From positions 7,387 through 44,932 of the forward strand of contig NZVC01000031.1 in NCBI GenBank assembly GCA_002701395.1: a stretch of DNA of 37,546 bases, written 5' to 3'. The DNA is from Maritimibacter sp. GTDB taxonomy: Bacteria > Pseudomonadota > Alphaproteobacteria > Rhodobacterales > Rhodobacteraceae. The translations under genes and the position numbers were made by a program. Numbering within the stretch: the stretch's first letter is position 1; each line of letters opens with the position of its first letter. This document shows positions 10,676-31,091 of the stretch, one piece after another. The notes below the pieces were generated by a model. That model was not told where the DNA came from, searched no databases, and saw nothing but the letters and a program-made list of their open reading frames with translations.

Positions 10676-10758
10676 TCTGCCCCTCGATCGTGCTGCTGCC
10701 CGACTCTTGGGCAGCTTTTTTGCGTGTACCGGAAAACTTCCACTCAAAACTGGCCGCC

Positions 10759-10775: not shown

Positions 10776-10832
10776 CTGACAGTGAAAATTTTCGAGCATG
10801 AGGAAAACATGGGCCAACAGGGAATTTATGCC

Positions 10833-14557: not shown

Positions 14558-15175
14558 TCAGCCCCACGGTGCGCGGGGAAGCCGCCAGCCGAACCGGACG
14601 CTGGCCAGCCGTAGCGCCAACGCCAGCAGGGCCGCGACGACCGTCGCCGGGATGGCGGGCATGCCGGACCGCAGCGCGACCGCATAGGTCAGCGCCCCCG
14701 CCAGCGCGGCAAGGGCATAGACCTCTTCATGCAGCACGCGAGGCACCTCGGCGGCCAGCATATCGCGCAACATGCCGCCGCCGACCGCCGTCATCACGCC
14801 CAGCAGCACCGCGCCCGGGATCGCCAGGCCGAATTCCAGCGCCTTGTGGCATCCCGCGACGCAGAACACGCCCAGCCCCAGCGCATCCAGCACCATAACC
14901 GGGCGGCGCAGGCGGTTGATCACCGGGCCAAGGAAGAACACGCACAGCCCCGCCCCGGCGGCAACGCCCAGCGGAGTCAGCGTGCGCAGCGCGGCGGGCG
15001 GCGTATCGCCCAGCAGGATGTCGCGGACCATGCCGCCAGCCACGCCCGTCGCGACGGCCAGCACAACGATGCCGAACAGGTCCAGCTTGCGGCGCACCGC
15101 GACAAGCGCGCCGCTTAGCCCGAAGGCGAAGGTGCCAAGCACGTCCAGCGTGGCGATCAGCAGGGTGGCGGTCAT
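14558..15175 (-). CDS. TRIC/UPF0126-family membrane protein
   Basis: A 205-residue inner-membrane protein with about seven hydrophobic helices arranged as two similar halves. Each half has a glycine-rich turn followed by Arg-Asp: G-V-A-G-G-M-V-R-D-I-L-L-G-D and A-V-G-G-G-M-L-R-D-M-L-A. This is the signature of the UPF0126 family, prokaryotic relatives of trimeric intracellular cation channels; some members have been linked to glycine or cation movement. It begins at ATG 15175 and is alone on the minus strand between tdm and the copper genes. No functional link with methylamine use can be shown from sequence. Confidence 0.88.
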   Translation of the reverse strand: MTATLLIATLDVLGTFAFGLSGALVAVRRKLDLFGIVVLAVATGVAGGMVRDILLGDTPPAALRTLTPLGVAAGAGLCVFFLGPVINRLRRPVMVLDALGLGVFCVAGCHKALEFGLAIPGAVLLGVMTAVGGGMLRDMLAAEVPRVLHEEVYALAALAGALTYAVALRSGMPAIPATVVAALLALALRLASVRFGWRLPRAPWG

Positions 15176-15309
15176 CGTTGCGGTCTCCGGTTGGCTGCCG
15201 TGCAGCCTAGCGGGCGCGCGGGGCGATGCACAGATGCCGGTGGACCCGACGGGTGATGTGACAATCTCTCTCTTTCGTTCGACCGTTGGTTCGCGATAGA
15301 GATCGCCGC

Positions 15310-15666
15310 ATGACCAGATCCTGGCCTCATATCCTGTTCGGGCTGCTGTTGGCTGTCACGCTTGTCGTGTCGGGCGCGCTGTCAGCGCGGCAGATGGGGC
15401 CGGACCGCGACAAGATGATGGCGGAAGCCTCGCTTGCGGCGCTGGGCGGAAGCCTTGCGGATCTGTGCCAGACCGATGGCGGCCCGGCGCATGTCCACGA
15501 CTGCCCGTTCTGCCACAAGCTGCCAGAGGCACAGAGCATGGCGTTCACGCCTGCGGCCTCGCGGGTGGTGCATCGCTTCGTTGCCGACCTGTCGCCCGAT
15601 CTTGTCACCGGCCCGCAGACGCACGGGTTGCACAGAACGGCGCGCGCTCCTCCACGCACGGCCTGA
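15310..15666 (+). CDS. Small DUF2946-like exported protein, copper context
   Basis: A 118-residue protein with a hydrophobic N-terminal segment (about residues 5-25) that looks like a signal peptide or anchor. It is followed by a Cys/His patch, D-L-C-Q near residue 57 and H-V-H-D-C-P-F-C-H near 66-74. The C-P-x-C pattern and size resemble DUF2946 proteins, found beside copper handling genes. ATG 15310 is chosen over an upstream in-frame ATG at 15286 that would put charged residues before the signal. It leads a plus-strand group with a YcnI-PCuAC fusion and a SCO protein, so a role in periplasmic copper binding is likely but unproven. Confidence 0.7.
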   Translation: MTRSWPHILFGLLLAVTLVVSGALSARQMGPDRDKMMAEASLAALGGSLADLCQTDGGPAHVHDCPFCHKLPEAQSMAFTPAASRVVHRFVADLSPDLVTGPQTHGLHRTARAPPRTA

Positions 15667-15749
15667 GATCCCCCTCGTTTTGGCCCGCCATCGTGCGGGC
15701 GGTGATCAATGGCAGACCGGCACAGCCGGCTGCGACCCTTGGAGCGACC

Positions 15750-16778
15750 ATGAAACTTCTTTCCCTGACCTTCGTCCCGGCCCTTGCGCTTGCGCTGTCC
15801 GGGTCCGCCGCCCTTGCGCATTCGACGCTTGCGCAAAGCGAAGTCACCGCAGGTGCCACGACGAAGCTGACCGTCCGCGTGCCGCACGGCTGTGATGGCG
15901 AAGCGACCCACACCGTCGAGGTGACGCTGCCCGAAGGCGTCTACAACGCCAAGCCGATGCCCAAGGCCGGGTGGGAGCTGACGACCGAAACCGGCGCCTA
16001 TGCGACCCCCTACATGAACCACGGCACCGAAATGACCGAAGGCGTGCGCAAGGTCACATGGTCTGGCGGCAATCTTGAAGATGGGTGGTACGATGAGTTC
16101 ACCGTCCGCGCGGTGATCGGCCCCGAAGTGACGCCCGGCACGATCCTGTACCTTCCGGTGATGCAGTACTGCGCGAACGGAACATCTGACTGGACCGATA
16201 TCACCGGCGCCGATGGCGTGCCGAACCCCGCGCCCAACGCGCGGGTCGTCGCGGGTGCTGGTCATGGACACGGGCATGGCCACGGTGCCGGACACGGGCA
16301 CGACCATGACGCGGCCGCCATTACAAACGACGGGCCGGTTGTCGCCGGGGACCTGACGCTGACGGGCGGCTTCTCGCGCGCGACGCTGCCGAACGCCCCC
16401 GTTGGTGGTGGCTTCCTGACCATCGAGAACGCGGGCGCCGCCGACCGCCTTGTCTCTGCCAGTTCCGACGCGGCCGAACGTGTCGAGATCCACGAGATGG
16501 CGATGGACGGCGACGTCATGCGGATGCGCAAGCTTTCGGACGGCCTGCCGCTTCCTGCGGGCGAGACGGTTGATCTGAAGCCCGGCGGCTATCACCTGAT
16601 GTTCATGGGCCTGACCGGCGCGCTTGTCGAAGGTGAGACCCTAGAGGTCACGCTGGAATTCGAGAACGCGGGCGAGGTCGTTGTGCCGCTGCTGATCGGC
16701 GCGCCGAACGCCAAAGGGCCCGGCAACGGCACGATGCAGCACGATCACGGCCACATGGCCGACACCGGCAAGGAGTGA
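15750..16778 (+). CDS. YcnI (DUF1775)-PCuAC fusion copper chaperone
   Basis: A 342-residue periplasmic protein joining two copper-binding modules. The signal peptide (1-23) ends A-A-L-A, so the mature protein begins with His (H-S-T-L-A-Q-S), as in YcnI proteins where the first His binds copper. DUF1775 covers about 24-165. A linker near 170-187 is built of repeated Gly-His. Residues 195-330 are a PCuAC (DUF461) domain with the H-x-M ... M-x-M ... H-L-M-F-M ligand pattern (first His about 248, second about 281). The C-terminus has a further H-D-H-G-H-M. Likely role: copper delivery toward the Cu-A/Cu-B sites of cytochrome oxidase, together with the SCO protein that starts 6 bp later. Confidence 0.9.
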   Translation: MKLLSLTFVPALALALSGSAALAHSTLAQSEVTAGATTKLTVRVPHGCDGEATHTVEVTLPEGVYNAKPMPKAGWELTTETGAYATPYMNHGTEMTEGVRKVTWSGGNLEDGWYDEFTVRAVIGPEVTPGTILYLPVMQYCANGTSDWTDITGADGVPNPAPNARVVAGAGHGHGHGHGAGHGHDHDAAAITNDGPVVAGDLTLTGGFSRATLPNAPVGGGFLTIENAGAADRLVSASSDAAERVEIHEMAMDGDVMRMRKLSDGLPLPAGETVDLKPGGYHLMFMGLTGALVEGETLEVTLEFENAGEVVVPLLIGAPNAKGPGNGTMQHDHGHMADTGKE

Positions 16779-16784
16779 AAACGG

Positions 16785-17378
16785 ATGACCAGAAACCGGG
16801 TATTCATCGGAATTCTCTGGGCCGCGGCGGCAATCGCGCTGCTTGCGTTTGCCTACTTCAGGTTTGTGGCGCCGCAGATCGAGGCGCGCGTCAGCGACGG
16901 GCTGGGCGTGGGAGATTACGAACTCGTCACCACGGACGGTCAGCCCTTCACGGAAGACAGCCTGAAGGGCGGCGCGACGGCGGTGTTCTTCGGCTTTACC
17001 CATTGTCCCGAGGTCTGCCCGACCACGCTGGGGGATGTCGCCGGCTGGCAGGACGAGCTTGCCGCAGATGGCGAGGAACTGCGCGTGTTCTTCGTGACCG
17101 TCGACCCCGAGCGGGACACGACCGAGGTGCTGGGCGACTATGTCGGCTGGGTGCCTGGTACCGTCGGCGTGACCGGGACGCCGGAAGAGGTCAAGAAGGC
17201 CGAGAAGGCGTTCATGGTCTACTCTGCGAAGGTCCCGCTGGAAGGCGGCGATTACACGATGGACCATTCGGCCAGCGTGCTGTTGTTCGACGAAGATGGC
17301 CGGTTCTTCGAGCCGGTCGGCTATGGTGAAGGCTTCGACCGCGCGGTGGCAAAGATCCGGCGGATGATCGGGGCCTGA
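16785..17378 (+). CDS. SCO1/SenC-family copper chaperone
   Basis: A 197-residue membrane-anchored thioredoxin-fold protein. A single N-terminal helix spans about residues 7-28. The copper/redox motif is F-T-H-C-P-E-V-C-P near residues 70-78, and the third ligand is the His in T-M-D-H-S-A-S-V near 163. The family assists assembly of the Cu-A site of cytochrome c oxidase on the periplasmic side. ATG 16785 lies 6 bp after the stop of the YcnI-PCuAC gene, behind AAGGAGTGAAAACG, so the two are one operon. Confidence 0.93.
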   Translation: MTRNRVFIGILWAAAAIALLAFAYFRFVAPQIEARVSDGLGVGDYELVTTDGQPFTEDSLKGGATAVFFGFTHCPEVCPTTLGDVAGWQDELAADGEELRVFFVTVDPERDTTEVLGDYVGWVPGTVGVTGTPEEVKKAEKAFMVYSAKVPLEGGDYTMDHSASVLLFDEDGRFFEPVGYGEGFDRAVAKIRRMIGA

Positions 17379-17395
17379 CCGGGCCCCCTCCCTAA

Positions 17396-17417
17396 CCTCC
17401 CCCCAATCGGGGGGAGG
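17396..17417. terminator. GC-rich hairpin between the convergent SCO and SDR genes
   Basis: A perfect 9-bp stem (CCTCCCCCC / GGGGGGAGG) around AATC sits between the stops of the SCO gene (17378) and the SDR gene (17451). There is no T-run on either side, so it is not a textbook intrinsic terminator. Pairs of C-run/G-run arms of this kind occur as dispersed intergenic hairpins in Rhodobacteraceae. It could stabilise the 3' ends or reduce read-through. Confidence 0.45.
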
Positions 17418-17450
17418 GGCTTGGTTGCGCTTGCGTCTGGCGGCGGCGGC

Positions 17451-18230
17451 CTAGATCTCTTCGATGGCTTCCAGCGACTCCGGCAGGATCTGTCCGCCGT
17501 CCACCACAATGGTCTGGCCGGTGATGTACCCGGCCTCTTTCGATGCGAAGAACAGCGCGGCGTTGCCGATGTCCTCGGGGTCGCCCAACCGTTTCAGCGG
17601 GATCGAGGCGGCCATCGTATCAAGGTAGTCCTGCCCAAGATCGGCCAGCCCCTCGGTCGCGATGTTGCCCGGCAGGACCGCGTTGATCGTGACGTTGTAG
17701 CGCGACAGTTCCATTGCCGCCGTTTTCAGGAACCCAAGCTGACCGGATTTCGATGCGCCATAGTGGGTCCAGCCGGGAAAGCCGGTGAACGGGCCGGTGA
17801 TCGACGAGGTCAGAACGATCCGCCCGCCGCCCTTCGCCTTGAACGCGGGGATGCAGGCTTTGGTGCACAGGAACGACGACCGAAGGTTGGTGGCCATCAC
17901 GGCGTCCCATTCCTCGACCTCCATGTCGATCAGCTTGGACTGCGGGAACGCACCCGCGTTAGCGCACAGGATATCCACGCCACCGAGCGCTTCGGTCGCC
18001 GCCGCGACCATGCCCTGCACGGCGTCCCAGTCGGACACGTCGGCGGAATGGGCCAGCGCGGTTCCGCCGTCTGCGGTCAGCTCTGCCGCTGCCGCCTCGG
18101 CGGCGGACAGGTCGCGCCCAACGATAAGGACCTTCGCGCCTGCTCTGGCGAAAACCCGTGCAATCCCACGTCCGATACCCTTCGAGCCGCCGGTGACGAT
18201 TGCGGTCTGTCCCGTGATCGGTGTCAGCAT
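17451..18230 (-). CDS. Short-chain dehydrogenase/reductase (SDR)
   Basis: A 259-residue classical SDR. The cofactor motif T-G-G-S-K-G-I-G is at 13-20, C-A-N-A-G near 89-93, and the catalytic Ser/Tyr/Lys are about S143, Y157 and K161 (Y-G-A-S-K). The C-terminal I-T-G-Q-T-I-V-V-D-G-G-Q is typical of FabG-like members. It should interconvert an alcohol and a ketone or aldehyde with NAD(P)H. ATG 18230 is chosen because the residues upstream are not SDR-like. It is divergent from the APH-type kinase gene across about 120 bp, so it may belong functionally to that module. No substrate can be assigned. Confidence 0.9.
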   Translation of the reverse strand: MLTPITGQTAIVTGGSKGIGRGIARVFARAGAKVLIVGRDLSAAEAAAAELTADGGTALAHSADVSDWDAVQGMVAAATEALGGVDILCANAGAFPQSKLIDMEVEEWDAVMATNLRSSFLCTKACIPAFKAKGGGRIVLTSSITGPFTGFPGWTHYGASKSGQLGFLKTAAMELSRYNVTINAVLPGNIATEGLADLGQDYLDTMAASIPLKRLGDPEDIGNAALFFASKEAGYITGQTIVVDGGQILPESLEAIEEI

Positions 18231-18354
18231 CCTGTCATCTCTCCCTGTCTTTTGCCCGGATGCTTGCGTCTGACGCACGGGCAGGGAAGAGAGAGGGTGG
18301 AACGGTCCCACCCCCGCAGTGACGGGACCGGGGAACTGCACGGAAGTTGGGCGC

Positions 18355-19332
18355 ATGGGCGGAGTTTACAGCGAAACGGTGCTGGAGGAGTTGGCGGAGG
18401 GGGTTCAGGGCCTGCTGCCCGAATGGGGCCTTTCGGGCACCTTGCGGCTGCTGACCATCTCGGAGAACGCGACTTACCTGCTGGACGGGCCGCACGGGCG
18501 CACGGTCTTTCGCGTCCATCGCCCCGGCTATCACACCGAGGATGAAATCCGGTCCGAACTTGCGTGGATCGAGGCATTGCGGGCGCAGGGCATCGTCGAG
18601 ACACCGGCGATCCTGCCGACCCGCGACGGCGTCCGGGTCCGGGCCTTCGATCACGGGGACGAACTGCGCCATGTCGTGGCCTTCGCCTTTGCCGAGGGGA
18701 TCGAACCGCGCCCCGGCGACGACCTTGTGCCCGGCTTCCGGACGCTGGGCGGCATCAGCGCGCGGCTGCACGGGCATGTGCGCGCGTGGGACAAGCCCGC
18801 AGGTTTCCTGCGCAAGACGTGGACGTTCGACACCATTGCCGGGGACCGGCCGCACTGGGGGCCGTGGCAGGCCGCGCTGGGGCTGACGCCGGACGGGCGC
18901 GCGGTGCTGGATCGTCTGGCGGCTGCGCTGGACGCGCGGCTGGCCGCATGGGGCACGGGGCCGGATCGGTTCGGGTTGATCCATGCCGACTTGCGGCTGG
19001 CCAACCTGCTGGTCCGCGAGGGCGGGCTGACGGTGATCGACTTCGACGATTGCGGGTTCGGCTGGTTCGGCTTCGACTTCGCCGCCGCCGTCAGCTTCAT
19101 GGAAGAAGCCCCCGAGATCCCCGCGCTGATGGACGCTTGGGTCGAGGGCTATCGCGCCGTGGCGCCGCTGGGGGACGCGGACGCGGCGATGCTGCCGACC
19201 TTCGTCATGCTGCGCCGCCTGCAACTGACCGCGTGGATCGCCAGCCACGCCGAGACGCCCACCGCGCAAGAGTTCGGTGACGGGTTCACCGACGGCACGG
19301 TGATGCTGGCCGAGCGGTATCTGTCGGCATGA
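18355..19332 (+). CDS. APH-fold small-molecule kinase (amino-alcohol kinase candidate)
   Basis: A 325-residue aminoglycoside phosphotransferase-fold kinase. The catalytic loop is H210-A-D-L-R-L-A-N217 and the metal motif is I-D-F-D-D near 228-232; both are intact. The sequence recalls homoserine kinase II and hydroxylysine/ethanolamine-type kinases more than antibiotic kinases. ATG 18355 follows GGAAG at about 10 bp. The stop overlaps the ATG of the class III PLP enzyme by 4 nt. An APH kinase coupled to an AGXT2L-like PLP enzyme recalls the animal pair that phosphorylates 5-hydroxylysine and then eliminates phosphate, and the ethanolamine-phosphate phospho-lyase system. The likely role is to phosphorylate an amino-alcohol for the next enzyme; the substrate is inference. 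Confidence 0.83.
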   Translation: MGGVYSETVLEELAEGVQGLLPEWGLSGTLRLLTISENATYLLDGPHGRTVFRVHRPGYHTEDEIRSELAWIEALRAQGIVETPAILPTRDGVRVRAFDHGDELRHVVAFAFAEGIEPRPGDDLVPGFRTLGGISARLHGHVRAWDKPAGFLRKTWTFDTIAGDRPHWGPWQAALGLTPDGRAVLDRLAAALDARLAAWGTGPDRFGLIHADLRLANLLVREGGLTVIDFDDCGFGWFGFDFAAAVSFMEEAPEIPALMDAWVEGYRAVAPLGDADAAMLPTFVMLRRLQLTAWIASHAETPTAQEFGDGFTDGTVMLAERYLSA

Positions 19333-20627
19333 GCGTCACGTCGCGCGACATCCTAGACATGAACGCCTTTCACGGCGATGGCGACGACCCGCTGGTCGCG
19401 CGGCGGTTGGCGAGCATGGGGGCGGCGTCGACGCTGTTCTTCGAACGGCCCATCGAGATGGTCAGCGCGCAGGGGGCCGAGATGACGGCGGCGGACGGCA
19501 CCGTCTTCCTTGATCTCTACAACAACGTGCCGTCCGTCGGGCATTCGCACCCCCGCGTCGTGGCCGCCGTGCAGGATCAGGTGGCGCGGCTGAACACCAA
19601 CTCGCGCTATCTCAGCGCGGTGACCGAGGCCTATTCCGAGCGCCTGCTGGCGACGGTGCCTGTGCCCGATGCACGGATCGCCTACACCTGCTCTGGCAGC
19701 GAGGCGAACGATCTTGCGCTGCGGATCGCCCGGCTTTCGACGGGGAAGCGTGGCGTCGTGGTGACCGAGGCCGCGTATCACGGCAATACCGCCGCTGTGA
19801 CCGAGGTGTCGCCGGTGTCCTACCGGCAGGGCGGGGTGCCCGACCACGTCCGGCTGATCCCACCGCCCGGACCCGCCTATGGCGACGATATCGCGGGCGG
19901 CTTCGCGTCGGCTCTGCGCGCGGCGATCGCCGGACTGGAAGCCGACGGGCACGGGTTCGCGGCCTTCCTGTGCGACTCGATCTTTTCGTCCGACGGGGTG
20001 TTCGCCTTCGACTGGTCGGCGCTGGTCGCGGCGGCAGAGGTCACGCGCACGGCGGGCGGGCTTTATATCGCGGACGAGGTGCAGCCGGGCTTTGGCCGCA
20101 CCGGGCGCGGGCTGTGGGCCGTGGCGGCGGCGGGGGCGGTGCCGGACATCCTGACGATGGGCAAGCCGATGGGGAACGGATTTCCCATGGCGGCGATGGT
20201 GGCCCGCGCCGATCTGCTGGCGCGGTTCGCAGAGGCCTTCGGGTACTTCAACACCTTCGCCGGAAATCCCGTGGCCGCGGCGGCGGGGTCGGCGGTGCTG
20301 GATGTGATCGAGGACGAGGGCCTGATCGCCAACGCCGCCGCCGTCGGTGCGCGGCTGAAGGACGGGCTGACGGCGCTGGACAGTCCTGTCATCGGCGCGG
20401 TCCGGGGCTGCGGACTGTACCTTGGGGTCGACATCGTCGCGGGCGACGCACCTGACCCGGACGGCGCGACGCGGCTGATCAACGCGCTTCGGGATCGCCG
20501 CATCATGGTCGGCGCCGCCGGTCGTTTCGGCCACACGCTGAAGATCCGCCCGCCCCTGTGCCTGAGCGCGGAACAGGCGGATCGCTTTCTTGGCGTCTTC
20601 GCCGAGTTGACCGCCGGGCCTGCCTGA
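19329..20627 (+). CDS. Class III PLP enzyme, phospho-lyase-like (AGXT2L/ETNPPL branch)
   Basis: A 432-residue fold-type I PLP enzyme of the class III aminotransferase family. PLP-binding elements: G-S-E-A-N-D near 122-127, D249-E-V-Q-P-G-F-G-R-T-G, and the Schiff-base lysine K279 in T-M-G-K-P-M-G-N-G-F-P. The N-terminal block L-Y-N-N-V-P-S-V-G-H-S-H-P followed by L-N-T-N-S-R-Y-L, and the M-G-K-P-M-G-N-G segment, are features of the branch containing ethanolamine-phosphate and phosphohydroxylysine phospho-lyases. Those enzymes release phosphate and ammonia and leave an aldehyde. The 4-nt overlap with an upstream kinase supports phospho-lyase over transaminase. The substrate is unknown; an ordinary omega-aminotransferase remains possible. 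Confidence 0.85.
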   Translation: MSVTSRDILDMNAFHGDGDDPLVARRLASMGAASTLFFERPIEMVSAQGAEMTAADGTVFLDLYNNVPSVGHSHPRVVAAVQDQVARLNTNSRYLSAVTEAYSERLLATVPVPDARIAYTCSGSEANDLALRIARLSTGKRGVVVTEAAYHGNTAAVTEVSPVSYRQGGVPDHVRLIPPPGPAYGDDIAGGFASALRAAIAGLEADGHGFAAFLCDSIFSSDGVFAFDWSALVAAAEVTRTAGGLYIADEVQPGFGRTGRGLWAVAAAGAVPDILTMGKPMGNGFPMAAMVARADLLARFAEAFGYFNTFAGNPVAAAAGSAVLDVIEDEGLIANAAAVGARLKDGLTALDSPVIGAVRGCGLYLGVDIVAGDAPDPDGATRLINALRDRRIMVGAAGRFGHTLKIRPPLCLSAEQADRFLGVFAELTAGPA

Positions 20628-20638
20628 TTTCGCGGCAC

Positions 20639-20653
20639 TTTCTCTCCTCGAAA
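20639..20653. promoter_or_regulatory. Candidate operator TTTC-N7-GAAA upstream of the choline-kinase-like gene
   Basis: TTTCTCTCCTCGAAA lies 12 bp after the phospho-lyase stop and about 85 bp before the start of the choline-kinase-like gene, in a short AT-rich gap. The same 15-bp outline, TTTC-N7-GAAA, occurs before the XRE gene (24056) and twice before mgsA (24896 and 24916). It is a plausible operator for the XRE-cupin regulator encoded nearby. Confidence 0.5.
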
Positions 20654-20738
20654 TGTGACTGGTTAGAAAACTATTTGCATCCCACGCAAGTCGTCGTGAC
20701 AGTCGGGTCAACATCCGACCGGCCGTGCAGGGAGGCTC

Positions 20739-21635
20739 ATGACCGATAGCGAACCCGTCCCCGAGGCGCTTGAAGCGCGCATCCGCGCGATCCCCTTCTG
20801 GACCGATCCGGGCGCAATCTCGGCGCTGGGCGGCGGCATCACCAACGTGAACGCGGTGGTCGAGGATGGCGGGCGCAAATACGTCGTCCGGCTGGGCGAG
20901 GACATCCCCGAGCACCTTGTGATGCGCTGGAACGAACGCCGCATTGCCGAGGCCGCCGCAGCCGCTGGCGTGTCGCCGCCGCTGCGCCATTTCGAGCCCG
21001 GCGTGATGGTGTTCGACCATGTCGAGTCCACCGCACTTGAGGAACAGGACCTGCACGACGCCCAGACACTGACCGAGGCGGTGGCGCTGGTCGGGCGGGT
21101 TCACCGCGAGGTGACGCGGGCGATCACCGGGCCGGTGCTGACCTTCTGGGTGTTCCACGTCATCCGAACCTACGCCGCCTATCTGAAGGCCAAGGGTTCG
21201 CGCCACGCACCGAAGCTGGACGCGCTGCTGGCGCAGTCCGACCTGTTGGAAGACGGCGTCGGCCCGGTGCAGCTTGTGTTGGGGCACAACGACCTGCTGC
21301 CCGCCAACATCCTGCGCGGCGCGGACCGGCTTTGGCTGGTGGATTGGGAATACGGCGGCTTCAATTCCCCGCTGTTCGACCTTGGCGGGCTGGCCAGCAA
21401 CGCGGGCCTGCCAGAAGAGGCCGAGATCGGGATGCTGGCGGCTTTTTTCGGACGCCCGCCCGATGCCGCGTTGCTGCGCAGCTATCGTGCGATGAAATGC
21501 GCCTCGCTTCTGCGCGAGACGACGTGGAGCATGGTTTCGGAAATCTCGTCCGACATCGACTTCGACTATGCCGCCTACACGGAGGAAAACATGACCCGAT
21601 ACGAGGCCGCTTTGGCCGACTGGAGTCGCGGATGA
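20739..21635 (+). CDS. Choline/ethanolamine kinase-like protein (LicA type)
   Basis: A 298-residue kinase of the choline kinase branch of the APH fold. It has an ATP-site glycine region (L-G-G-G-I-T-N-V-N), the catalytic loop G-H183-N-D185-L-L-P-A-N-I-L, and the metal motif L-V-D202-W-E-Y-G-G; the W-E-Y-G and following F-D-L-G are hallmarks of choline/ethanolamine kinases. ATG 20739 follows GGGAGG closely. The stop overlaps the start of the FAD/GcvT enzyme (ATGA), so the two form a coupled pair. It should phosphorylate choline, ethanolamine or an N-methylated ethanolamine. Lipopolysaccharide decoration, the role of LicA, is not supported by the neighbours. Confidence 0.85.
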   Translation: MTDSEPVPEALEARIRAIPFWTDPGAISALGGGITNVNAVVEDGGRKYVVRLGEDIPEHLVMRWNERRIAEAAAAAGVSPPLRHFEPGVMVFDHVESTALEEQDLHDAQTLTEAVALVGRVHREVTRAITGPVLTFWVFHVIRTYAAYLKAKGSRHAPKLDALLAQSDLLEDGVGPVQLVLGHNDLLPANILRGADRLWLVDWEYGGFNSPLFDLGGLASNAGLPEEAEIGMLAAFFGRPPDAALLRSYRAMKCASLLRETTWSMVSEISSDIDFDYAAYTEENMTRYEAALADWSRG

Positions 21636-24046
21636 GCTTGCCAGACAGTGCCGAGGTTGTCGTTGTCGGCGGCGGGATCATCGGATGCTCGACCGCCTAT
21701 CACCTTGCCAAGATGGGGGTCGAGGTGGTGCTGCTGGAGCGGGCCAAGCTGACCAGCGGGTCGACCTTCCACGCGGCGGGGCTGGTGGGGCAGTTGCGGT
21801 CCTCGGCCAATATCACCCAGCTTCTGGGATATTCGGTCGAGCTGTATGACCGGCTGGAAGAAGAGACCGGGCTTGCCACGGGCTGGAAACGGAACGGCGG
21901 TCTGCGGCTTGCGTGCAATGACGAACGCTGGACCGAGGTAAAGCGGCAGGCCACGACGGCGCATTCCTTCGGGCTGGAGATGGAACTGTTGACCGCGAAA
22001 GAGGCGCAGGACCTTTGGCCGCTGATGGACGTATCGGACGTGGTCGGCGCGGCTTTCCTGCCGACCGACGGTCAGGCGAACCCGTCCGACATCACCGCCG
22101 CGCTGGCGAAAGGCGCGCGGTTGGCGGGCGCGCTGATCGTCGAGGATTGCGCGGTGCAGTCGGTCGACATCGAGAACGGTGTGGTGACGGGTGTCGTCAG
22201 CGACAAGGGCCGCATCGACTGCCCGAAGGTCGTCGCCTGCTGCGGTCAGTGGACCCGCGCCTTTGCCGCGACCGTCGGGGTGAACGTGCCGCTGGTGTCG
22301 ATGGAACACCAGTACATGGTGACCGAGCGGATCGAGGGGGTGACGCCGAACCTGCCAACCCTGCGCGACCCCGACCGGCTGACCTACTGGAAGGAAGAGG
22401 TCGGCGGGCTGGTGATGGGCGGCTACGAGCCCAACCCGAAGCCGTGGGCCGTGAAGGGCATTCCCGAGGGGTTCCACTTCAGCCTGCTGGATTCCGACTT
22501 CGACCATTTCGAGCAGATCATGGAGCTGGCGCTGGGCCGTGTTCCCGCGATGGAGACGGCGGGGATCAAGACCCTGACCAACGGGCCGGAAAGCTTCACG
22601 CCCGACGGCAATTTCATCCTTGGCGAGGCGCCGGAACAGCCCGGATTTTTCGTCGGCGCGGGGTTCAACGCCTTCGGCATCGCCTCGGGCGGCGGCGCGG
22701 GCATGGCGCTGGCGGAGTGGGTGGCGAAGACAGAGCCGCCGTTCGATCTGTGGCCGGTGGACATTCGCCGCTTTGGCCGCCCGCATTTCGACACGGACTG
22801 GATCCGCACCCGCACGGTCGAGGCCTACGGAAAACACTACACGATGGCGTGGCCGTCCGAAGAACACGACAGCGGCCGCCCCTGCCGCCGTTCGCCGCTG
22901 TACGCGACGCTGAAGGCGCGCGGCGCGGTGTTCGGCGAAAAGCTGGGGTGGGAACGGCCCAACTGGTACGGGCCGGACGGCGCGCGGGACGAATACACCT
23001 ATGGCCGTCCCAACTGGTTCGCGCATGTCGGGGCGGAACACGCAGCCTGTCGTGACGGCGTGGTACTGATCGACCAGTCGTCCTTCGCCAAGTTCGCGCT
23101 GAAGGGGCCGGATGCGATGGCCGCGCTGGGCTGGATCGCCGCGAACGACGTCAGCGGTCCTCCGGGCAGTCTGACCTACACGCAAATGCTGAACGATCAC
23201 GGCGGCATCGAGGCGGATCTGACCTGTGCCCGGATGGCTTTGGATGAATATTACATCGTGACCGGCACCGGCTTTGCCACGCGGGATTTCGACTGGATCG
23301 CGAAAGGTATCCCGCAGGGCATGAACGCGCAGTTGGTGGACGTGACCTCGGGCTGGGCGGTGCTGTCGCTGATGGGGCCGAAGGCACGGGATATCCTGCA
23401 GGCGGTCACGCGGGCGGACGTGTCGAACGACGCCTTCCCCTTCGGCACCGCGCAGACCATCGGCATCGCGGGCGCTCCGGTTCGGGCGCTGCGGGTGTCC
23501 TATGTCGGTGAACTGGGGTGGGAGCTGCATATCCCGACCGAGTACGCCCTGTCGGTCTATGACGCGCTGCATGCGGCTGGCGATGTGACCGACGCCGGCT
23601 ATCGCGCGATCGAGACGCTGCGGTTGGAAAAGGGGTATCGCGCGTGGGGGGCGGACATCGGACCGGACCACACGCCGCTGGAGGCGGGATTGGGCTGGGC
23701 GGCGCGCAAGTCCACCGACTATCGCGGCAAGGCGGCGGTCGAGGCGCAGCGGGCCACCGGCGTGACCAAGATGCTGGCGACCTTTACCGCCGACCCAAAG
23801 GTGATCCTGCTGGGCCGCGAGACGATCTATCGCGACGGCGTTCGGGTCGGATACCTGTCCTCGGGCGGGTTCGGCCATACCGTCGGCAAGGCGATCGGCA
23901 TGGGCTATGTCCGCCACGCCGAGGGTGTCACCCGCGACTGGGTTCTGGGCGGAACCTACGAGCTGGAAGTCGCGACCAAGCGGGTGCCGTGTGAGGTCAC
24001 GCTGTCGCCGTTATACGATCCGCAGAACGTCAGGGTGAAATCCTGA
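21632..24046 (+). CDS. FAD/folate demethylating dehydrogenase (dimethylglycine/sarcosine dehydrogenase-like)
   Basis: An 804-residue fusion of an N-terminal DAO-type FAD oxidoreductase (about 1-400) and a C-terminal GcvT-type folate-binding module (about 440-800), as in dimethylglycine and sarcosine dehydrogenases. The FAD motif is G13-G-G-I-I-G18. S-G-S-T-F-H47-A-A-G matches the site where family members attach FAD covalently through His. The GcvT part contains Y-V-G-E-L-G-W-E-L-H and L-R-L-E-K-G-Y-R-A-W-G-A-D-I. The family removes an N-methyl group and passes it to tetrahydrofolate as methylene-THF. ATG 21632 overlaps the kinase stop. Coupling to a choline-kinase-like gene suggests a methylated amino-alcohol or its phosphate as substrate, an inference; glycine betaine-derived dimethylglycine is the conventional alternative. 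Confidence 0.9.
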   Translation: MSLPDSAEVVVVGGGIIGCSTAYHLAKMGVEVVLLERAKLTSGSTFHAAGLVGQLRSSANITQLLGYSVELYDRLEEETGLATGWKRNGGLRLACNDERWTEVKRQATTAHSFGLEMELLTAKEAQDLWPLMDVSDVVGAAFLPTDGQANPSDITAALAKGARLAGALIVEDCAVQSVDIENGVVTGVVSDKGRIDCPKVVACCGQWTRAFAATVGVNVPLVSMEHQYMVTERIEGVTPNLPTLRDPDRLTYWKEEVGGLVMGGYEPNPKPWAVKGIPEGFHFSLLDSDFDHFEQIMELALGRVPAMETAGIKTLTNGPESFTPDGNFILGEAPEQPGFFVGAGFNAFGIASGGGAGMALAEWVAKTEPPFDLWPVDIRRFGRPHFDTDWIRTRTVEAYGKHYTMAWPSEEHDSGRPCRRSPLYATLKARGAVFGEKLGWERPNWYGPDGARDEYTYGRPNWFAHVGAEHAACRDGVVLIDQSSFAKFALKGPDAMAALGWIAANDVSGPPGSLTYTQMLNDHGGIEADLTCARMALDEYYIVTGTGFATRDFDWIAKGIPQGMNAQLVDVTSGWAVLSLMGPKARDILQAVTRADVSNDAFPFGTAQTIGIAGAPVRALRVSYVGELGWELHIPTEYALSVYDALHAAGDVTDAGYRAIETLRLEKGYRAWGADIGPDHTPLEAGLGWAARKSTDYRGKAAVEAQRATGVTKMLATFTADPKVILLGRETIYRDGVRVGYLSSGGFGHTVGKAIGMGYVRHAEGVTRDWVLGGTYELEVATKRVPCEVTLSPLYDPQNVRVKS

Positions 24047-24151: not shown

Positions 24152-24799
24152 ATGAACAAGCCGACGAAGACATCCGAGACCAAGCTGACGCAAGACCCGC
24201 ACGCCACGCGGGAAGTCCGCGAGAAAAACCTCGAAGTCGCCATCGGCCGGCAGGTGCGTGACCTGCGCAAGCGGCAGCGGATGACCGGCTCGGATCTTGC
24301 CGCGGCCTCCGGCCTTTCGGTGGGCACCCTGTCGAAGATCGAGAACGGCCATATCTCGCCCTCGTTGAACACGCTGCAGGTGCTGGCGAATGCGCTGCGC
24401 GTGCCCTTTGTCCAGCTGTTCACCGGCTTCGACGAGGTGCGCGGCGCGATGCACGTCAAGGCGGGGCAGGGTGTCGAGATCGAACGCGCGGGCACCCGCG
24501 CAGGGCACCAGTATAACCTGCTGGGGCACATCGGATCGAACAACTCGGGCGTCGTGGTCGAGCCCTACCTGATCACGTTGGACAGCGAAGCTGACCGTTT
24601 TCCGGCGTTTCAGCACGAGGGGATCGAGTTCCTGTACATGCTGGAAGGCAAGATCGACTATCGCCACGGCGACCAGTTGTACCTGCTGGAACCGGGCGAC
24701 GCGCTGTTGTTCGATTCGGACGCGCCGCACGGTCCCGAGGTGCTGTTGGAACTGCCGTCGCGGTATCTTTCGATCATCACCTACCCGCAGGCCGGCTGA
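24152..24799 (+). CDS. XRE-family transcriptional regulator with C-terminal cupin
   Basis: A 215-residue DNA-binding regulator. An N-terminal XRE helix-turn-helix (about residues 30-85: L-R-K-R-Q-R-M-T-G-S-D-L-A, then S-V-G-T-L-S-K-I-E-N-G) is joined to a cupin sensor domain (about 130-210, with H-E-G-I-E-F-L-Y-M-L-E-G and L-L-E-P-G-D-A-L-L-F-D-S-D-A-P-H). Regulators of this layout often sense small amines, sugars or amino acids and control adjacent operons. ATG 24152 follows AGGGAGG by 10 bp. It lies between the demethylase pair and mgsA, and matching 15-bp operator-like sites lie upstream of all three units. It is therefore the best candidate for the local regulator; repression versus activation cannot be told. 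Confidence 0.9.
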   Translation: MNKPTKTSETKLTQDPHATREVREKNLEVAIGRQVRDLRKRQRMTGSDLAAASGLSVGTLSKIENGHISPSLNTLQVLANALRVPFVQLFTGFDEVRGAMHVKAGQGVEIERAGTRAGHQYNLLGHIGSNNSGVVVEPYLITLDSEADRFPAFQHEGIEFLYMLEGKIDYRHGDQLYLLEPGDALLFDSDAPHGPEVLLELPSRYLSIITYPQAG

Positions 24800-24993: not shown

Positions 24994-25881
24994 ATGTGTG
25001 GCATCGTGGGCCTTTTTCTGAAGTCGGAGGCGCTGCGCCCCAAGCTGGGCGAGATGCTGACCGACATGCTGATCACCATGACCGACCGCGGCCCCGACTC
25101 GGCCGGTATCGCGATCTATGGTGACCCCGGCGACGGGCTGAAGGTGACCGTCCAGTCCGACACGCCTGCCGAAGACTTCGACGGGCTCGACGTGGCGCTG
25201 GGCGAAGTGCTGGGCGGTGCGGTTCCGATGAAAGTGTCCGACACCCACGCCGTGCTGACCATCCCCGCCGACGCCAAGACGCGCGCGGTCGCGTTCCTTG
25301 AAGATCGCGGACTGCGCGTGATGGGCGTGGGCGAGGCGATGGAGATCTACAAGGAAGTCGGCCTGCCGAAGGACGTCGCCGCGCGGTTCGACCTGCGCAC
25401 CATGGGCGGCAGCCACGGCATCGGCCACACCCGCATGGCGACGGAAAGCGCGGTGACGACGCTGGGCGCGCATCCGTTCTCGACCGCGTCCGACGAATGC
25501 CTTGTGCACAACGGCTCGCTGTCGAACCACAACCGCCTGCGCCGCCAACTTGCGCGCGAGGGTTTCGTGACCAAGACCGAGAACGACACAGAGGTCGGCG
25601 CGGCCTACATCTCGTCCCGCATCGCGGGCGGTGCCAGCCTTGGCGAGGCGCTGGAAGGCACGCTGCAGGATCTCGACGGGTTCTTCACCTTCGTGATGGG
25701 CACCAAGACCGGGTTCGGCGTGGTGCGCGACCCGATCGCCTGCAAGCCCGCCGTGATGGCCGAGACCGACGATTACGTCGCCTTCGGCTCCGAGTATCGC
25801 GCTTTCGCGGACCTGCCGGGGATCGAAACCGCCCGCGTCTGGGAACCCGAGCCCGCCACCGTCTATTTCTGGGAGCGCTGA
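24994..25881 (+). CDS. mgsA: N-methylglutamate synthase subunit A (class II glutamine amidotransferase-like)
   Basis: A 295-residue protein starting M-C-G-I-V-G-L-F, so Cys2 becomes the N-terminal nucleophile of a class II (Ntn) amidotransferase once Met is removed. Further family elements are D-R-G-P-D-S-A-G, G-H-T-R-M-A-T and V-H-N-G-S-L-S-N. In glutamate-synthase-like N-methylglutamate synthase, MgsA handles the gamma-glutamyl part. The complex moves the methylamino group to 2-oxoglutarate, or in effect converts gamma-glutamylmethylamide to N-methylglutamate. It starts the mgsABC operon 194 bp after the XRE gene, behind two operator-like sites. GlxB-type proteins are the main alternative; the following genes settle it. 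Confidence 0.92.
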   Translation: MCGIVGLFLKSEALRPKLGEMLTDMLITMTDRGPDSAGIAIYGDPGDGLKVTVQSDTPAEDFDGLDVALGEVLGGAVPMKVSDTHAVLTIPADAKTRAVAFLEDRGLRVMGVGEAMEIYKEVGLPKDVAARFDLRTMGGSHGIGHTRMATESAVTTLGAHPFSTASDECLVHNGSLSNHNRLRRQLAREGFVTKTENDTEVGAAYISSRIAGGASLGEALEGTLQDLDGFFTFVMGTKTGFGVVRDPIACKPAVMAETDDYVAFGSEYRAFADLPGIETARVWEPEPATVYFWER

Positions 25882-25898
25882 ACATGGAGGCTGCAGCA

Positions 25899-26597
25899 AT
25901 GGCCAAACCCGCAACCGACGCTTTGGTGCTGGACATGTCCGCCACCGAACTGCGCGAGGTGAACGCGACGCTTCAGGGCGCCTCTGGCAACGAGACGGCC
26001 TTCGAACTGGTCAACCCGCGCGGCAGCCACGCCGTTGCGGTCGGGCTCGACGCGCAGATCGAGGTCACGGTGAAGGGCTCGACCGGGTACTACTGCGCCG
26101 GGATGAACAAGCAGGCAACGGTGCATGTCGAGGGCTCGGTCGGCCCGGGCGTGGCCGAGAACATGATGTCCGGCACGGTGATCGTGGATGGCGACGCCTC
26201 GCAATACGCGGGCGCGACGGGGCACGGCGGGCTGCTGGTGGTGAAGGGCAACGCGTCCTCGCGCTGCGGCATCTCGATGAAGGGCATCGACATCGTGGTG
26301 CACGGCAACATCGGCCACATGTCCGCCTTCATGGCGCAGAAGGGCAACCTTGTTGTGCTGGGCAATGCTGGCGACGCGCTGGGCGACAGCCTGTACGAGG
26401 CGCGGCTGTTCGTGCGCGGCGAGGTGAAAAGCCTTGGCGCCGACTGCATCGAAAAAGAGATGCGCCCCGAACATCTGGAAATCCTTGCCGACCTGCTGGA
26501 CCGCGCCGGCGCCGACGCGAAGCCGGAAGAGTTCAAGCGTTACGGCTCGGCCCGCAAGCTTTACAACTTCAACATCGACCACGCAGACGAATACTGA
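25899..26597 (+). CDS. mgsB: N-methylglutamate synthase subunit B (GltB C-terminal domain-like)
   Basis: A 232-residue protein resembling the C-terminal GXGXG beta-helix domain of glutamate synthase. Many short Gly-rich turns are visible: V-E-G-S-V-G-P-G-V-A, V-D-G-D-A-S-Q-Y-A-G-A-T-G-H-G-G, V-K-G-N-A-S, V-H-G-N-I-G-H-M, L-G-N-A-G. It is the structural middle subunit of N-methylglutamate synthase. ATG 25899 has GGAGG 8 bp upstream; the in-frame ATG at 25884 lies before that ribosome binding site and lacks one of its own. It is 17 bp after mgsA and 10 bp before mgsC. Confidence 0.92.
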   Translation: MAKPATDALVLDMSATELREVNATLQGASGNETAFELVNPRGSHAVAVGLDAQIEVTVKGSTGYYCAGMNKQATVHVEGSVGPGVAENMMSGTVIVDGDASQYAGATGHGGLLVVKGNASSRCGISMKGIDIVVHGNIGHMSAFMAQKGNLVVLGNAGDALGDSLYEARLFVRGEVKSLGADCIEKEMRPEHLEILADLLDRAGADAKPEEFKRYGSARKLYNFNIDHADEY

Positions 26598-26607
26598 GGA
26601 CGGCACG

Positions 26608-27933
26608 ATGAAAGACATTCCGCAGACCGAACCGCGCCAGTCCTGGACCTTCTCGAACGAGATCAACTCCGAGATCCGGCGCGCCGCGCAGACCGGCATC
26701 TACGACATCCGCGGCGGCGGCGCGAAACGGCGGGTGCCGCATTTCGACGACCTGCTGTTCCTTGGTGCGTCGATGTCGCGCTATCCGCTCGAAGGCTACC
26801 GCGAGAAATGCGAGACCGGCGTGACGCTGGGCACCCGTTTCGCGAAGAAGCCGATCGAGCTGAAGATCCCGATCACCATCGCCGGCATGTCCTTCGGCTC
26901 GCTCTCCGGCCCGGCGAAAGAGGCGCTCGGGCGCGGCGCCACCCTCGCCGGCACCTCGACCACCACCGGCGACGGCGGCATGACCGAGGAAGAGCGCGGC
27001 CATTCCGAGAAGCTGGTGTACCAGTACCTGCCGTCGCGCTACGGCATGAACCCAGACGACCTGCGCCGCGCCGATGCGATCGAGGTCGTGGTGGGGCAGG
27101 GCGCCAAGCCGGGCGGCGGCGGCATGCTGCTGGGCCAGAAGATCACGGAACGCGTCGCCGGAATGCGCGACCTGCCGGTCGGCATCGACCAGCGGTCGGC
27201 CTGCCGCCACCCGGACTGGACCGGGCCGGACGATCTGGAAATCAAGATCCTCGAACTGCGCGAGATCACCGGCTGGGAAAAGCCGATCTACATCAAGGTC
27301 GGCGGCGCGCGGCCCTATTACGACGTCGCGCTGTCGGTGAAGGCAGGCGCGGACGTGATCGTGCTGGACGGGATGCAGGGCGGCACCGCCGCCACGCAGG
27401 ACGTGTTCATCGAACATGTCGGCCAGCCCACGCTCGCCTGTATCCGGCCCGCCGTGAAGGCGCTGCAGGATCTCGGGATGCACCGCAAGGTCCAGCTGGT
27501 CGTGTCCGGCGGCATCCGCACCGGGGCCGACGTGGCCAAGGCGCTGGCGCTGGGCGCCGACGCGGTGTCCATCGGCACCGCCGCGCTGGTGGCGCTGGGC
27601 GACAACGACCCGAAATGGGAAGACGAATACCGCAAGCTTGGCACCACCACCGGCGCCTACGACGACTGGCACGAGGGCCGCGACCCGGCGGGCATCACAA
27701 CGCAGGACCCCGAGCTGATGGCGCGGCTTGATCCGGTCGAGGCGGGGCGGCGCTTGCGCAACTACCTCAACGTGATGACGCTGGAATGCCAGACGCTCGC
27801 GCGCGCCTGCGGCAAAAGCCACGTCCACAACCTCGAACCCGAGGACCTGTGCGCGCTGACGATGGAAGCCGCCGCAATGGCGCAGGTGCCGCTGGCGGGG
27901 ACCGACTGGTACCCGGGCAAGGCTGGGTTCTGA
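26608..27933 (+). CDS. mgsC: N-methylglutamate synthase subunit C (FMN-binding glutamate synthase domain)
   Basis: A 441-residue protein homologous to the FMN/iron-sulfur central domain of glutamate synthase. Recognisable elements: I-A-G-M-S-F-G-S-L-S, T-T-T-G-D-G-G-M near 120, G-Q-G-A-K-P-G-G-G-G near 165 (flavin phosphate loop), I-K-V-G-G-A-R-P-Y and V-L-D-G-M-Q-G-G-T-A-A, then S-G-G-I-R-T-G-A-D-V-A-K. This is the catalytic subunit making N-methylglutamate from the methylamine nitrogen. ATG 26608 is 10 bp after mgsB. A 138-bp gap with a dispersed repeat separates it from gmaS. Confidence 0.93.
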   Translation: MKDIPQTEPRQSWTFSNEINSEIRRAAQTGIYDIRGGGAKRRVPHFDDLLFLGASMSRYPLEGYREKCETGVTLGTRFAKKPIELKIPITIAGMSFGSLSGPAKEALGRGATLAGTSTTTGDGGMTEEERGHSEKLVYQYLPSRYGMNPDDLRRADAIEVVVGQGAKPGGGGMLLGQKITERVAGMRDLPVGIDQRSACRHPDWTGPDDLEIKILELREITGWEKPIYIKVGGARPYYDVALSVKAGADVIVLDGMQGGTAATQDVFIEHVGQPTLACIRPAVKALQDLGMHRKVQLVVSGGIRTGADVAKALALGADAVSIGTAALVALGDNDPKWEDEYRKLGTTTGAYDDWHEGRDPAGITTQDPELMARLDPVEAGRRLRNYLNVMTLECQTLARACGKSHVHNLEPEDLCALTMEAAAMAQVPLAGTDWYPGKAGF

Positions 27934-29388: not shown

Positions 29389-29481
29389 GGCAGGTATCCG
29401 CCACGCGGGAACGGTGTCACGAACGTGACTTCACCCGGCGCGGCGGGTCTGCAAGGTCAGACACAGGACGGCGGAGGGATC

Positions 29482-30729: not shown

Positions 30730-30738
30730 GGAGGGAAG

Positions 30739-30825
30739 ATGCAGAATTTTCTAGAAAATTCTGAAAGACACGATCTTCTAGAAGATCGTGCCCCGTCGTG
30801 CGGGCGGGGGATGTCGGAATGCTGA
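30739..30825 (+). CDS. 28-codon leader-like ORF between mgdA and mgdB
   Basis: ATG 30739 follows GAGGAGGGAAG, the strongest ribosome binding site in this stretch. The frame runs 28 codons (beginning M-Q-N-F-L-E-N-S-E-R-H-D) to TGA 30823-30825, overlapping the mgdB start at 30819 by 7 nt. Both perfect 22-bp palindromes lie inside it without breaking the frame. It may work by translational coupling: ribosomes that finish it are placed on the mgdB start. Whether a peptide accumulates is unknown, and the frame could be fortuitous. Confidence 0.4.
   Translation: MQNFLENSERHDLLEDRAPSCGRGMSEC
30742..30790. repeat. Two adjacent perfect 22-bp palindromes between mgdA and mgdB
   Basis: Palindrome 1 is 30742-30763 (half-site CAGAATTTTCT) and palindrome 2 is 30769-30790 (half-site CACGATCTTCT), separated by AAAGA. 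Both are perfect over 22 bp and share the centre TTCTAGAA. In RNA they would form two hairpins with CUAG loops. The stretch is strikingly AT-rich against the GC-rich neighbours. It may be an inserted dispersed element, an mRNA processing or stability element, or a paired binding site. Confidence 0.9.
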
Positions 30826-31091
30826 TCCCTCATCCCTTGCTGGGACTACGCGACGCGCAAGAGTTCACCTATCTCGGCGACGCCCGCCTGCTGGACCGGC
30901 CCGATCCCGCGGACGGCGAAGCGGCGTTCTGCGACTATGTCTTCCTGCGCGACAACCCGGCGGGCGTGCACCGCGAGCTTTGGTATCACGAGCAGGGAGA
31001 CCGGTCGTGGCTGGTGGTCACCCGCGACACCGTCACCCACGAGATCCTTGGCGCCGAACTGGCCCGCTACGGCAAGGGAGGCGCGGCATGA
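30819..31091 (+). CDS. mgdB: N-methylglutamate dehydrogenase subunit B (sarcosine oxidase delta-like)
   Basis: A 90-residue protein matching the small delta subunit of heterotetrameric sarcosine oxidase: E-F-T-Y-L-G-D-A, then F-L-R-D-N-P-A-G-V-H-R-E-L-W-Y-H and V-T-R-D-T-V-T-H-E-I. In the sarcosine oxidase subunit an N-terminal C-P-x-C-G pair with two later histidines binds zinc. Here the N-terminus is M-L-I-P-H-P-L-L-G-L and both cysteines are missing, while the H-R-E-L-W-Y-H histidines remain. ATG 30819 lies 8 bp after GGGGG and overlaps the upstream short ORF. The stop overlaps the mgdC start (ATGA). Confidence 0.88.
   Translation: MLIPHPLLGLRDAQEFTYLGDARLLDRPDPADGEAAFCDYVFLRDNPAGVHRELWYHEQGDRSWLVVTRDTVTHEILGAELARYGKGGAA

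Follow-up and report, generated by a model that had tools for sequence, protein, structure and literature searches.

A kinase-demethylase gene pair with predicted methylated-ethanolamine substrates lies beside a probable amino-alcohol phospho-lyase module in a Maritimibacter trimethylamine island

Why would a bacterium carry two kinase genes in tandem, each coupled to a different amine-handling enzyme? The stretch of DNA analysed here, hereafter the window, comprises 37,546 nt from Maritimibacter sp. (Rhodobacteraceae; assembly GCA_002701395.1, contig NZVC01000031.1, positions 7,387-44,932, forward strand), and families were assigned by scanning 30 window proteins, a subset of its open reading frames (ORFs). 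A first gene pair joins an APH-type kinase, K1, to a pyridoxal-phosphate (PLP) enzyme, and a second joins the kinase K2 to FAD-GcvT, a predicted N-demethylase linked to tetrahydrofolate (THF). An earlier, sequence-only reading had described these genes as two translationally coupled tandem pairs on one strand; all four lie where it placed them, with ATGA overlaps at 19329-19332 (K1/PLP enzyme) and 21632-21635 (K2/FAD-GcvT), and Pfam confirmed their families. It had further proposed that the four genes form one route for N-methylated amino-alcohols.

Our answer, to which we give an even chance, is that K2 and FAD-GcvT phosphorylate methylated ethanolamines and then demethylate them with THF, that K1 and the PLP enzyme, together with a short-chain dehydrogenase/reductase (SDR), split amino-alcohol phosphates, and that the two pairs mostly occur apart elsewhere. 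This reading draws on gene families, adjacency, operon context, pocket residues and co-occurrence; its substrates are predictions. Two features were added to those first described: the four genes sit inside a trimethylamine (TMA)/methylamine island (tmm, tdm, mgs, gmaS, mgd, folD and purU), and the divergent SDR gene goes with the first pair.

K2 and FAD-GcvT form a conserved unit

A contig scan of named genomes confirmed 144 relatives of K2, from which 80 loci were kept. FAD-GcvT directly follows K2 in 72 of the 80 loci, as the window type in 68 and as a second type in four, while four of the remaining eight run into a contig edge and four have no FAD-GcvT. When the family was sampled at one genome per genus, 33 of 149 genomes carried K2, and FAD-GcvT lay beside it in 15 of 17 K2-bearing genomes that were fetched. 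We conclude that the pair is a conserved unit. At four loci (L129, L137, L141 and L143), K2 is followed by a second-type FAD-GcvT and then by a second kinase, K2b; two pairs can merge into one row.

FAD-GcvT holds DAO, FAO_M, GCV_T and GCV_T_C domains in a single chain and scores best in the PDB against dimethylglycine dehydrogenases (495 bits), in line with the resemblance originally described. Like dimethylglycine dehydrogenase (5l46, 4pab) and dimethylglycine oxidase (1pj5), to which it aligns over nearly the full length, it fuses an FAD-oxidase to GcvT; unlike them, it is kinase-linked and appears to belong to a clade with conserved positions of its own. All sampled kinase-linked FAD-GcvTs fell into one clade (54/54 tips, support 1.0, midpoint-rooted) containing none of 20 generic paralogues, a comparison set that may not include true dimethylglycine dehydrogenases. 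At several positions all 54 agree with one another and differ from the sampled paralogues; Arg249, for example, occurs in 54/54, whereas the 17 of 20 paralogues with a letter there carry E, G or T.

The kinase itself was examined with a profile of 34 K2 sequences, whose PDB matches were choline/ethanolamine kinases in 16 of 16 cases. K2 shares with 3dxq and with the choline kinase LicA (4r77/4r78; PMC4364537, available part) the fold, the catalytic residues and three pocket aromatics: Thr29, Asn32, Asp176, Asn181, Asp194 and Glu196 of LicA are kept in 34/34 sequences as T35, N38, D185, N190, D202 and E204, and Tyr197, Trp251 and Tyr268 correspond to Y205, W263 and Y280, likewise invariant (34/34). 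In the available part of the LicA report, the pocket consists of Y197, W251, W254, Y268 and E213, with Glu213 holding the ammonium of choline (PMC4364537). Here K2 departs from LicA, with Asn221 at the Glu213 position in 34/34 sequences and V, T, M or I at the Trp254 position (266), and it also sits in a catabolic operon rather than serving cell-wall phosphocholine. K2b keeps the Glu in 8/8 sequences, its residues being placed by counting from the invariant Tyr rather than by tool alignment to LicA; the Trp254 change is common to K2b and therefore not diagnostic. Judged from these residues, K2 is a kinase of the amino-alcohol type in which the nitrogen pocket has changed, and this counts against choline itself as substrate. 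Two other assignments were discarded on score, thiamine kinase (49 bits, cut-off 299) and the N-oxide kinase GntI (116 bits, cut-off 357), and a conserved cluster, e10, was dropped as antisense to K2.

Relatives place the pair with an importer, a phosphatase and ethanolamine genes

In 54 of the 80 loci a double-length ProW/TmoW-like permease gene lies directly upstream of K2 (three loci cannot be told). These importer loci carry an OpuAC-type binding protein, an ATPase and a DeoR-like regulator (50 loci each), an inositol-monophosphatase-family phosphatase (43), K2b (41) and a second FAD-GcvT (40), and 29 of the 54 combine importer, phosphatase and both kinase/FAD-GcvT pairs. The phosphatase gene is found in 43/54 importer loci versus 1/26 others. 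TMA genes accompany the K2 pair in 10 of the 80 loci, never together with the importer (0/80), and 16 loci have neither. Ten neighbour proteins, drawn from eight loci of which six lack both importer and TMA genes, showed no shared theme in Pfam. Separately, Rieske oxygenase alpha subunits, which could supply a quaternary-to-tertiary demethylation, are encoded near K2/FAD-GcvT in L038 (3556-8140), L091 and L096.

One importer binding protein was searched against the PDB and matched 4xz6 with 260 bits (next entry, 43). Each of the seven pocket residues that PMC8918994 gives for TmoX is present in the 4xz6 chain at its published number, and we therefore took this chain as TmoX. Among 47 aligned importer binding proteins, W55, W102 and W177 are kept in 47/47 and E131 in 46/47 (one X), while W222 is replaced by Tyr, F220 by Trp and F106 by Gly (45) or Ala (2). 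We read this site as a trimethylamine N-oxide (TMAO)-type aromatic box that is probably widened for a larger methylated amine bearing an oxygen.

Some relatives also connect the pair to ethanolamine gamma-glutamylation, an activity reportedly represented by GlnA4 of Streptomyces. At least one ethanolamine-route gene lies near K2 in 11/80 loci, six of which have one gene only, and five loci (L071, L080, L084, L130 and L148) carry the trio of ligase, aldehyde dehydrogenase (ALDH) and iron-type alcohol dehydrogenase (FeADH); these loci are not independent, as a single genus (Salipiger, Litoreibacter) contributes several. In L084 (Cognatishimia maritima) a single row holds both pairs, phosphatase, regulator, importer and an amidohydrolase-ligase-ALDH-FeADH series. 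The ligase of the relatives scores 679 bits to 5dm3, whose source organism we take to be Chromohalobacter. The trio keeps the order of the Phaeobacter sp. MED193 operon, which is induced by phosphoethanolamine according to the available text of PMC10132767; that operon differs in importing ethanolamine by the tripartite ATP-independent periplasmic (TRAP) system EtoXVW, and its figure legend names no kinase or FAD-GcvT. Queried with the ethanolamine ligase, the window yielded only gmaS and an upstream glutamine-synthetase (GS)-like gene, at 25-29%.

From these contexts a route can be proposed. Dimethyl- or monomethyl-ethanolamine would enter, in relatives through the TmoX-like ATP-binding-cassette importer, and K2 would form a phosphate ester, an acidic handle replacing the carboxylate normally bound by the dimethylglycine dehydrogenase family. 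The FAD domain would then oxidise an N-methyl group and the GcvT domain would transfer it to THF as methylene-THF, feeding folD/purU, a pair correctly described as nearby (~10 kb downstream). One or two rounds would give phosphoethanolamine, and many relatives carry two kinase/FAD-GcvT pairs. There, the inositol-monophosphatase-family enzyme would release ethanolamine, which the gamma-glutamyl-ethanolamide route would convert to glycine; the presence of kinase and phosphatase in one operon suggests that the phosphate is a temporary handle. In the window, the phospho-lyase of the first pair could take phosphoethanolamine directly, an alternative exit that may be accidental or a selected convergence. 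K1, the lyase and the SDR would handle 1-amino-2-propanol or ethanolamine, which would be phosphorylated and the ester split into aldehyde, ammonia and phosphate.

A kinase/FAD-GcvT unit for N-methylated amino-alcohols ending at ethanolamine fits the importer (54/80), the ethanolamine-route genes (11/80) and the kinase fold, which partly supports the earlier reading. Choline as a direct substrate of the FAD enzyme was set aside as unlikely on chemical grounds, since the nitrogen of a quaternary amine carries no lone pair.

The first pair reads as a three-gene amino-alcohol module

The PLP enzyme scores 317 bits against the 5g4i phospholyase and 270 against human ETNPPL (6tor), compared with 160 for the best transaminase. 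By score it is of the phospho-lyase type, as its original description as AGXT2L/ETNPPL-like implied, and an ordinary transaminase is ruled out on the same figures. K1 has its best PDB match in 6ef6 (283 bits; next entry, 49), and the SDR in 6ci8/6ci9 (298/296 bits). The PDB search labels these entries aminoglycoside phosphotransferase and 3-oxoacyl-ACP reductase, respectively; we take them to be the (S)-1-amino-2-propanol kinase and dehydrogenase of Mycobacterium smegmatis. In the five fetched relatives with the closest lyases (54-62%), K1 and lyase are adjacent in 5/5, and the SDR is within the locus in four (69-75%), directly divergent in two; it is present at 91% in L070, a Maritimibacter metagenome-assembled genome (MAG). 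Six K1 loci without a close lyase were also fetched. The SDR (64-68%) adjoins K1 in three of these, with an aldehyde-dehydrogenase-type gene in all three and a bacterial microcompartment (BMC)-shell-type gene in two (Pfam checked on the L069 copies only). Because of the K1 and SDR scores and the grouping of SDR, K1 and lyase in relatives, the first pair plus SDR reads as a three-gene module, probably of the aminoacetone/1-amino-2-propanol type, and it appears to resemble 1-amino-2-propanol enzymes more closely than the ethanolamine-phosphate assignment first proposed.

The AAUM/RMM/Aut microcompartment clusters described in PMC6620236 likewise bring together a 1-amino-2-propanol dehydrogenase, an APH phosphotransferase and an aminotransferase-like enzyme, with K1 and the SDR matching the first two. 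They differ from the window in their shell genes, none of which (PF00936) was found among the 30 window proteins scanned. In the available part of that paper the kinase acts later rather than ahead of a lyase, and the published reconstruction reads the PLP enzyme as an aminotransferase; the scores obtained here favour a lyase.

A narrower explanation is that the first pair is only such an aminoacetone/1-amino-2-propanol module, made of SDR, kinase and lyase without a microcompartment, and never meets the K2 route. We place this just short of an even chance. The PDB matches of K1 and SDR speak for it, as do the BMC shell and aldehyde dehydrogenase family genes adjoining K1 and SDR in relatives; against it, the pair is kept beside K2 in both the window and L070, and 5g4i-type lyases accept phosphoethanolamine too.

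The first pair is a local addition to the island

The closest named locus, L070 (CP051232.1), matches the window in gene order from tdm to mgdA, with 84-99% identity over the 14 genes compared, and its 7.2-kb tdm-K2 block contains the same genes as the window where compared. Eight other islands (L071-L076, L080 and L081) lack the 6.2-kb block that separates tdm from K2 in the window: there tdm and K2 overlap, stop to start, by 4 nt in five islands and by 8 nt in three. The first pair is, accordingly, a local addition to the TMA island.

Counts across loci and genomes agree with this. Only two of the 80 K2 loci, L070 and L077 (on the opposite strand in the latter), have a lyase or K1 of the same clade, and by genome the counts are 2/33 K2-bearing versus 4/116 others (p 0.61; this and all later genome p values ignore phylogeny). 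No K2 was found within a stretch of ~19.5 kb in the five fetched relatives carrying the window-type K1/lyase unit, and neither K1 nor lyase in 18 K2 regions from 17 fetched family genomes. Lyase and K2 were seen together only in the window, in L070 and, less closely, in L077. The two pairs are thus apart in most relatives, an outcome that the earlier reading had itself named as refuting, and the proposal of one conserved four-gene pathway, as a general statement, is rejected on the locus and genome counts.

A linear pathway confined to the window, in which methylated ethanolamine is phosphorylated and demethylated and the resulting phosphoethanolamine passes to the lyase, is a separate matter, although we consider it unlikely. 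It would account for the tandem order on one strand and agrees with the nearest solved relatives of the lyase, which include human ethanolamine-phosphate phospho-lyase; any ETNPPL-like enzyme is also commoner in K2-bearing genomes (25/33 versus 49/116, p 7.5e-4), in a set that mixes several clades and fused forms. The rarity of same-clade K1/lyase at K2 loci and the lack of genome-level association run counter to it, as does the absence of K2 near the K1/lyase units of relatives, and K1 would be redundant in such a pathway.

Evidence weighing against a phosphorylated route

Genome-level co-occurrence with ethanolamine-route genes is high: K2-bearing genomes have the ligase in 31/33 cases versus 61/116 (p 5e-6) and FeADH in 32/33 versus 72/116 (p 3e-5), with a weak association for gmaS (16/33 versus 29/116, p 0.017). 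Several observations nevertheless weigh against the reading we prefer, K2-dependent phosphorylation followed by demethylation, with the first pair as a separate module. Requiring the ligase within 5 kb of FeADH gave a weaker association (25/33 versus 58/116, p 0.0098), although several of the nine K2-bearing genomes failing this test have one of the genes at a contig end, and the p values share the neglect of phylogeny noted above. The ligase match of the window's own genome (59%) adjoins an SDR and a BadF-type kinase and not FeADH, so some of the 92 ligase matches may be paralogues. Nowhere in the 149-genome sample was K2 seen near a ligase/FeADH module; eight genomes have K2 and a module gene on the same contig, never closer together than 40 kb. 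No importer and no phosphatase turned up next to the K2 pair of the window, nor did its genome yield a fused permease of the importer type. In addition, the overlap of tdm and K2 in 8/10 TMA-type loci is unexplained by an ethanolamine route, the closest lyase clade co-occurs with K2 no more than by chance, two of the 17 fetched K2-bearing genomes have no FAD-GcvT beside K2, and the K2 pocket has changed at the Glu213 and Trp254 positions.

A rival explanation is that demethylation involves no phosphorylated intermediate: FAD-GcvT would act on free sarcosine, dimethylglycine or methylated ethanolamine, and K2 would phosphorylate another compound or act only after demethylation. The dimethylglycine dehydrogenases that are the nearest solved relatives of FAD-GcvT, the replacement of the ammonium-holding Glu by Asn in K2 and the need of the ethanolamine-route genes for free ethanolamine would all be compatible with that. 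The adjacency of kinase and FAD-GcvT in 72/80 loci, the phosphatase in 43/54 importer operons and the separate clade of kinase-linked FAD-GcvTs with its Arg249 (54/54) argue otherwise, and we regard this explanation, too, as improbable. A last possibility, that the K2/FAD-GcvT pair of the TMA islands stands in for the dimethylamine demethylation missing from between tdm and gmaS, would suit the frequent tdm/K2 overlap and the fact that the only PF11927 gene of the genome is not in the window but elsewhere, next to a methyltransferase gene and two genes with no Pfam match. It is very unlikely given that dimethylamine has no hydroxyl for a kinase and that 54/80 K2 loci have the importer but lack TMA genes.

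Two observations concern these genes in their own right. The PF11927 (haem N-demethylase-like) gene of the window's genome (L172, 4451-5335 on contig C6) scores 148 bits; in G157, the genome containing L089, there is also a second copy with a higher score (219 bits), perhaps a true DmmA. The ligase match of the window's genome is a GS-like gene followed by the SDR and BadF-type kinase genes (together L173, 5601-8711, contig C3); it belongs to a separate ligase cluster, and at 59% it could be mistaken for an ethanolamine ligase.

Relation to known systems

The closest functional parallel is the MthK-MthB-MthC-MthA system of Eubacterium limosum, in which choline is phosphorylated and N-demethylated with transfer of the methyl group to THF, the authors arguing, in the available text, that the kinase turns an alcohol into an acidic substrate (PMC12155760). 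The order of events, kinase first and then N-demethylation of the phosphorylated form with the methyl group passed to THF, would be the same for K2/FAD-GcvT. MthK/MthB, as described there, is anaerobic, of the cobalamin/MttB type, acts on a quaternary amine and yields methyl-THF, whereas the substrate of FAD-GcvT must be a tertiary or secondary amine and its product would be methylene-THF. Among the 30 window proteins scanned, none belonged to an MttB or corrinoid family. In its widest form, our proposal is an aerobic phosphorylate-then-demethylate pathway in marine Rhodobacteraceae and some other proteobacteria, a flavin counterpart of MthK/MthB whose exit is swapped between phosphatase plus gamma-glutamylation and a PLP phospho-lyase; we hold this tentatively, as something rather short of an even chance.

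The island itself resembles the TMA/TMAO pathway of Ruegeria pomeroyi, with tmm, tdm, mgs, gmaS and mgd-type genes together and a TmoX-type importer in the K2 relatives; the available parts of PMC13390433 and PMC8918994 do not name K2/FAD-GcvT among the pathway genes. The window has an XRE-cupin regulator, while the Ruegeria pomeroyi paper roots TmaR with AraC. No description of a K2/FAD-GcvT operon was found in the open-access literature, a search that left subscription papers mostly outside. The occurrence of K2 in 33 of 149 sampled genera makes the pair common, yet undescribed in that literature. Methylated ethanolamines are relatives of lipid head groups, and an aerobic route of this kind, if real, would tie nitrogen release and one-carbon metabolism in marine bacteria to the turnover of phospholipids. 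Phosphorylation would then serve, for a second and independent time, to fit an amino-alcohol to a demethylase whose relatives take carboxylate-bearing amines.

Feature map and neighbouring genes

Both tmm and tdm exceed their NCBIfam equivalog cut-offs, and gmaS exceeds that of TIGR03105 (Table 1). The SDR ORF extends to 18356, with homology starting at about Met 18230; the Pfam scans of K1 and FAD-GcvT started at 18319 and 21617, respectively.

Table 1. Features of the TMA/methylamine island in window coordinates
Feature	Position	Strand	Evidence or remark
tmm, trimethylamine monooxygenase	10707..12188	+	NF058570 829 bits, cut-off 675
tdm, TMAO demethylase	12190..14538	+	NF053776 1164 bits, cut-off 1100
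~6.2 kb block between tdm and K2	14558..20738		Gly transporter, DUF1775-PCuAC, SCO1, SDR, K1, lyase
SDR dehydrogenase, divergent from K1	17451..18230	-	likely 1-amino-2-propanol/aminoacetone dehydrogenase; best PDB 6ci8/6ci9
K1, APH-type kinase	18355..19332	+	APH PF01636 95 bits; likely 1-amino-2-propanol/ethanolamine kinase
ETNPPL-type PLP phospho-lyase	19329..20627	+	Aminotran_3 PF00202 226 bits; ATGA-coupled to K1
Gap between pairs, 111 nt	20628..20738		K2 overlaps tdm end instead in eight related islands
K2, choline/ethanolamine-kinase-fold amino-alcohol kinase	20739..21635	+	Choline_kinase PF01633 71 bits (cut-off 29); APH 44 bits
FAD-GcvT, predicted THF-linked N-demethylase	21632..24046	+	DAO 231, FAO_M 65, GCV_T 272, GCV_T_C 69 bits
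XRE-cupin regulator, between FAD-GcvT and mgs	24152..24799	+	kept in related islands; start codon picked by eye
mgsABC, N-methylglutamate synthase genes	24994..27933	+	GATase_6, GXGXG, Glu_synthase
gmaS, gamma-glutamylmethylamide synthetase	28072..29388	+	TIGR03105 658 bits, cut-off 470
mgd-type (sarcosine-oxidase-like) N-methylglutamate dehydrogenase genes	29425..34601	+	29425-30729 and 30788-34033 by family; 34026-34601 by position only
folD + purU, methylene-THF outlet	34553..36443	+	~10 kb downstream of FAD-GcvT

A promoter and terminator scan returned nothing clearly exceeding chance. Upstream of tmm, the window encodes the GS-like protein (TIGR03105 317 bits, cut-off 470) and a cytochrome P450 (2035-4763), both conserved (78-97% identity) in nine of the ten TMA-type K2 loci; L070, the remaining one, does not extend to this region. 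The same nine loci retain a GMC oxidoreductase, encoded in the window at 7402-9336 on the strand opposite tmm, which scores 533 bits against PRK02106, below the choline dehydrogenase cut-off of 605; in five loci it is adjoined by a gene of cluster e21, alpha/beta hydrolase-like by eye. Finally, the tdm-K2 block includes genes for a fused DUF1775-PCuAC protein and an SCO1 protein (15465-17378), both of copper-handling type.

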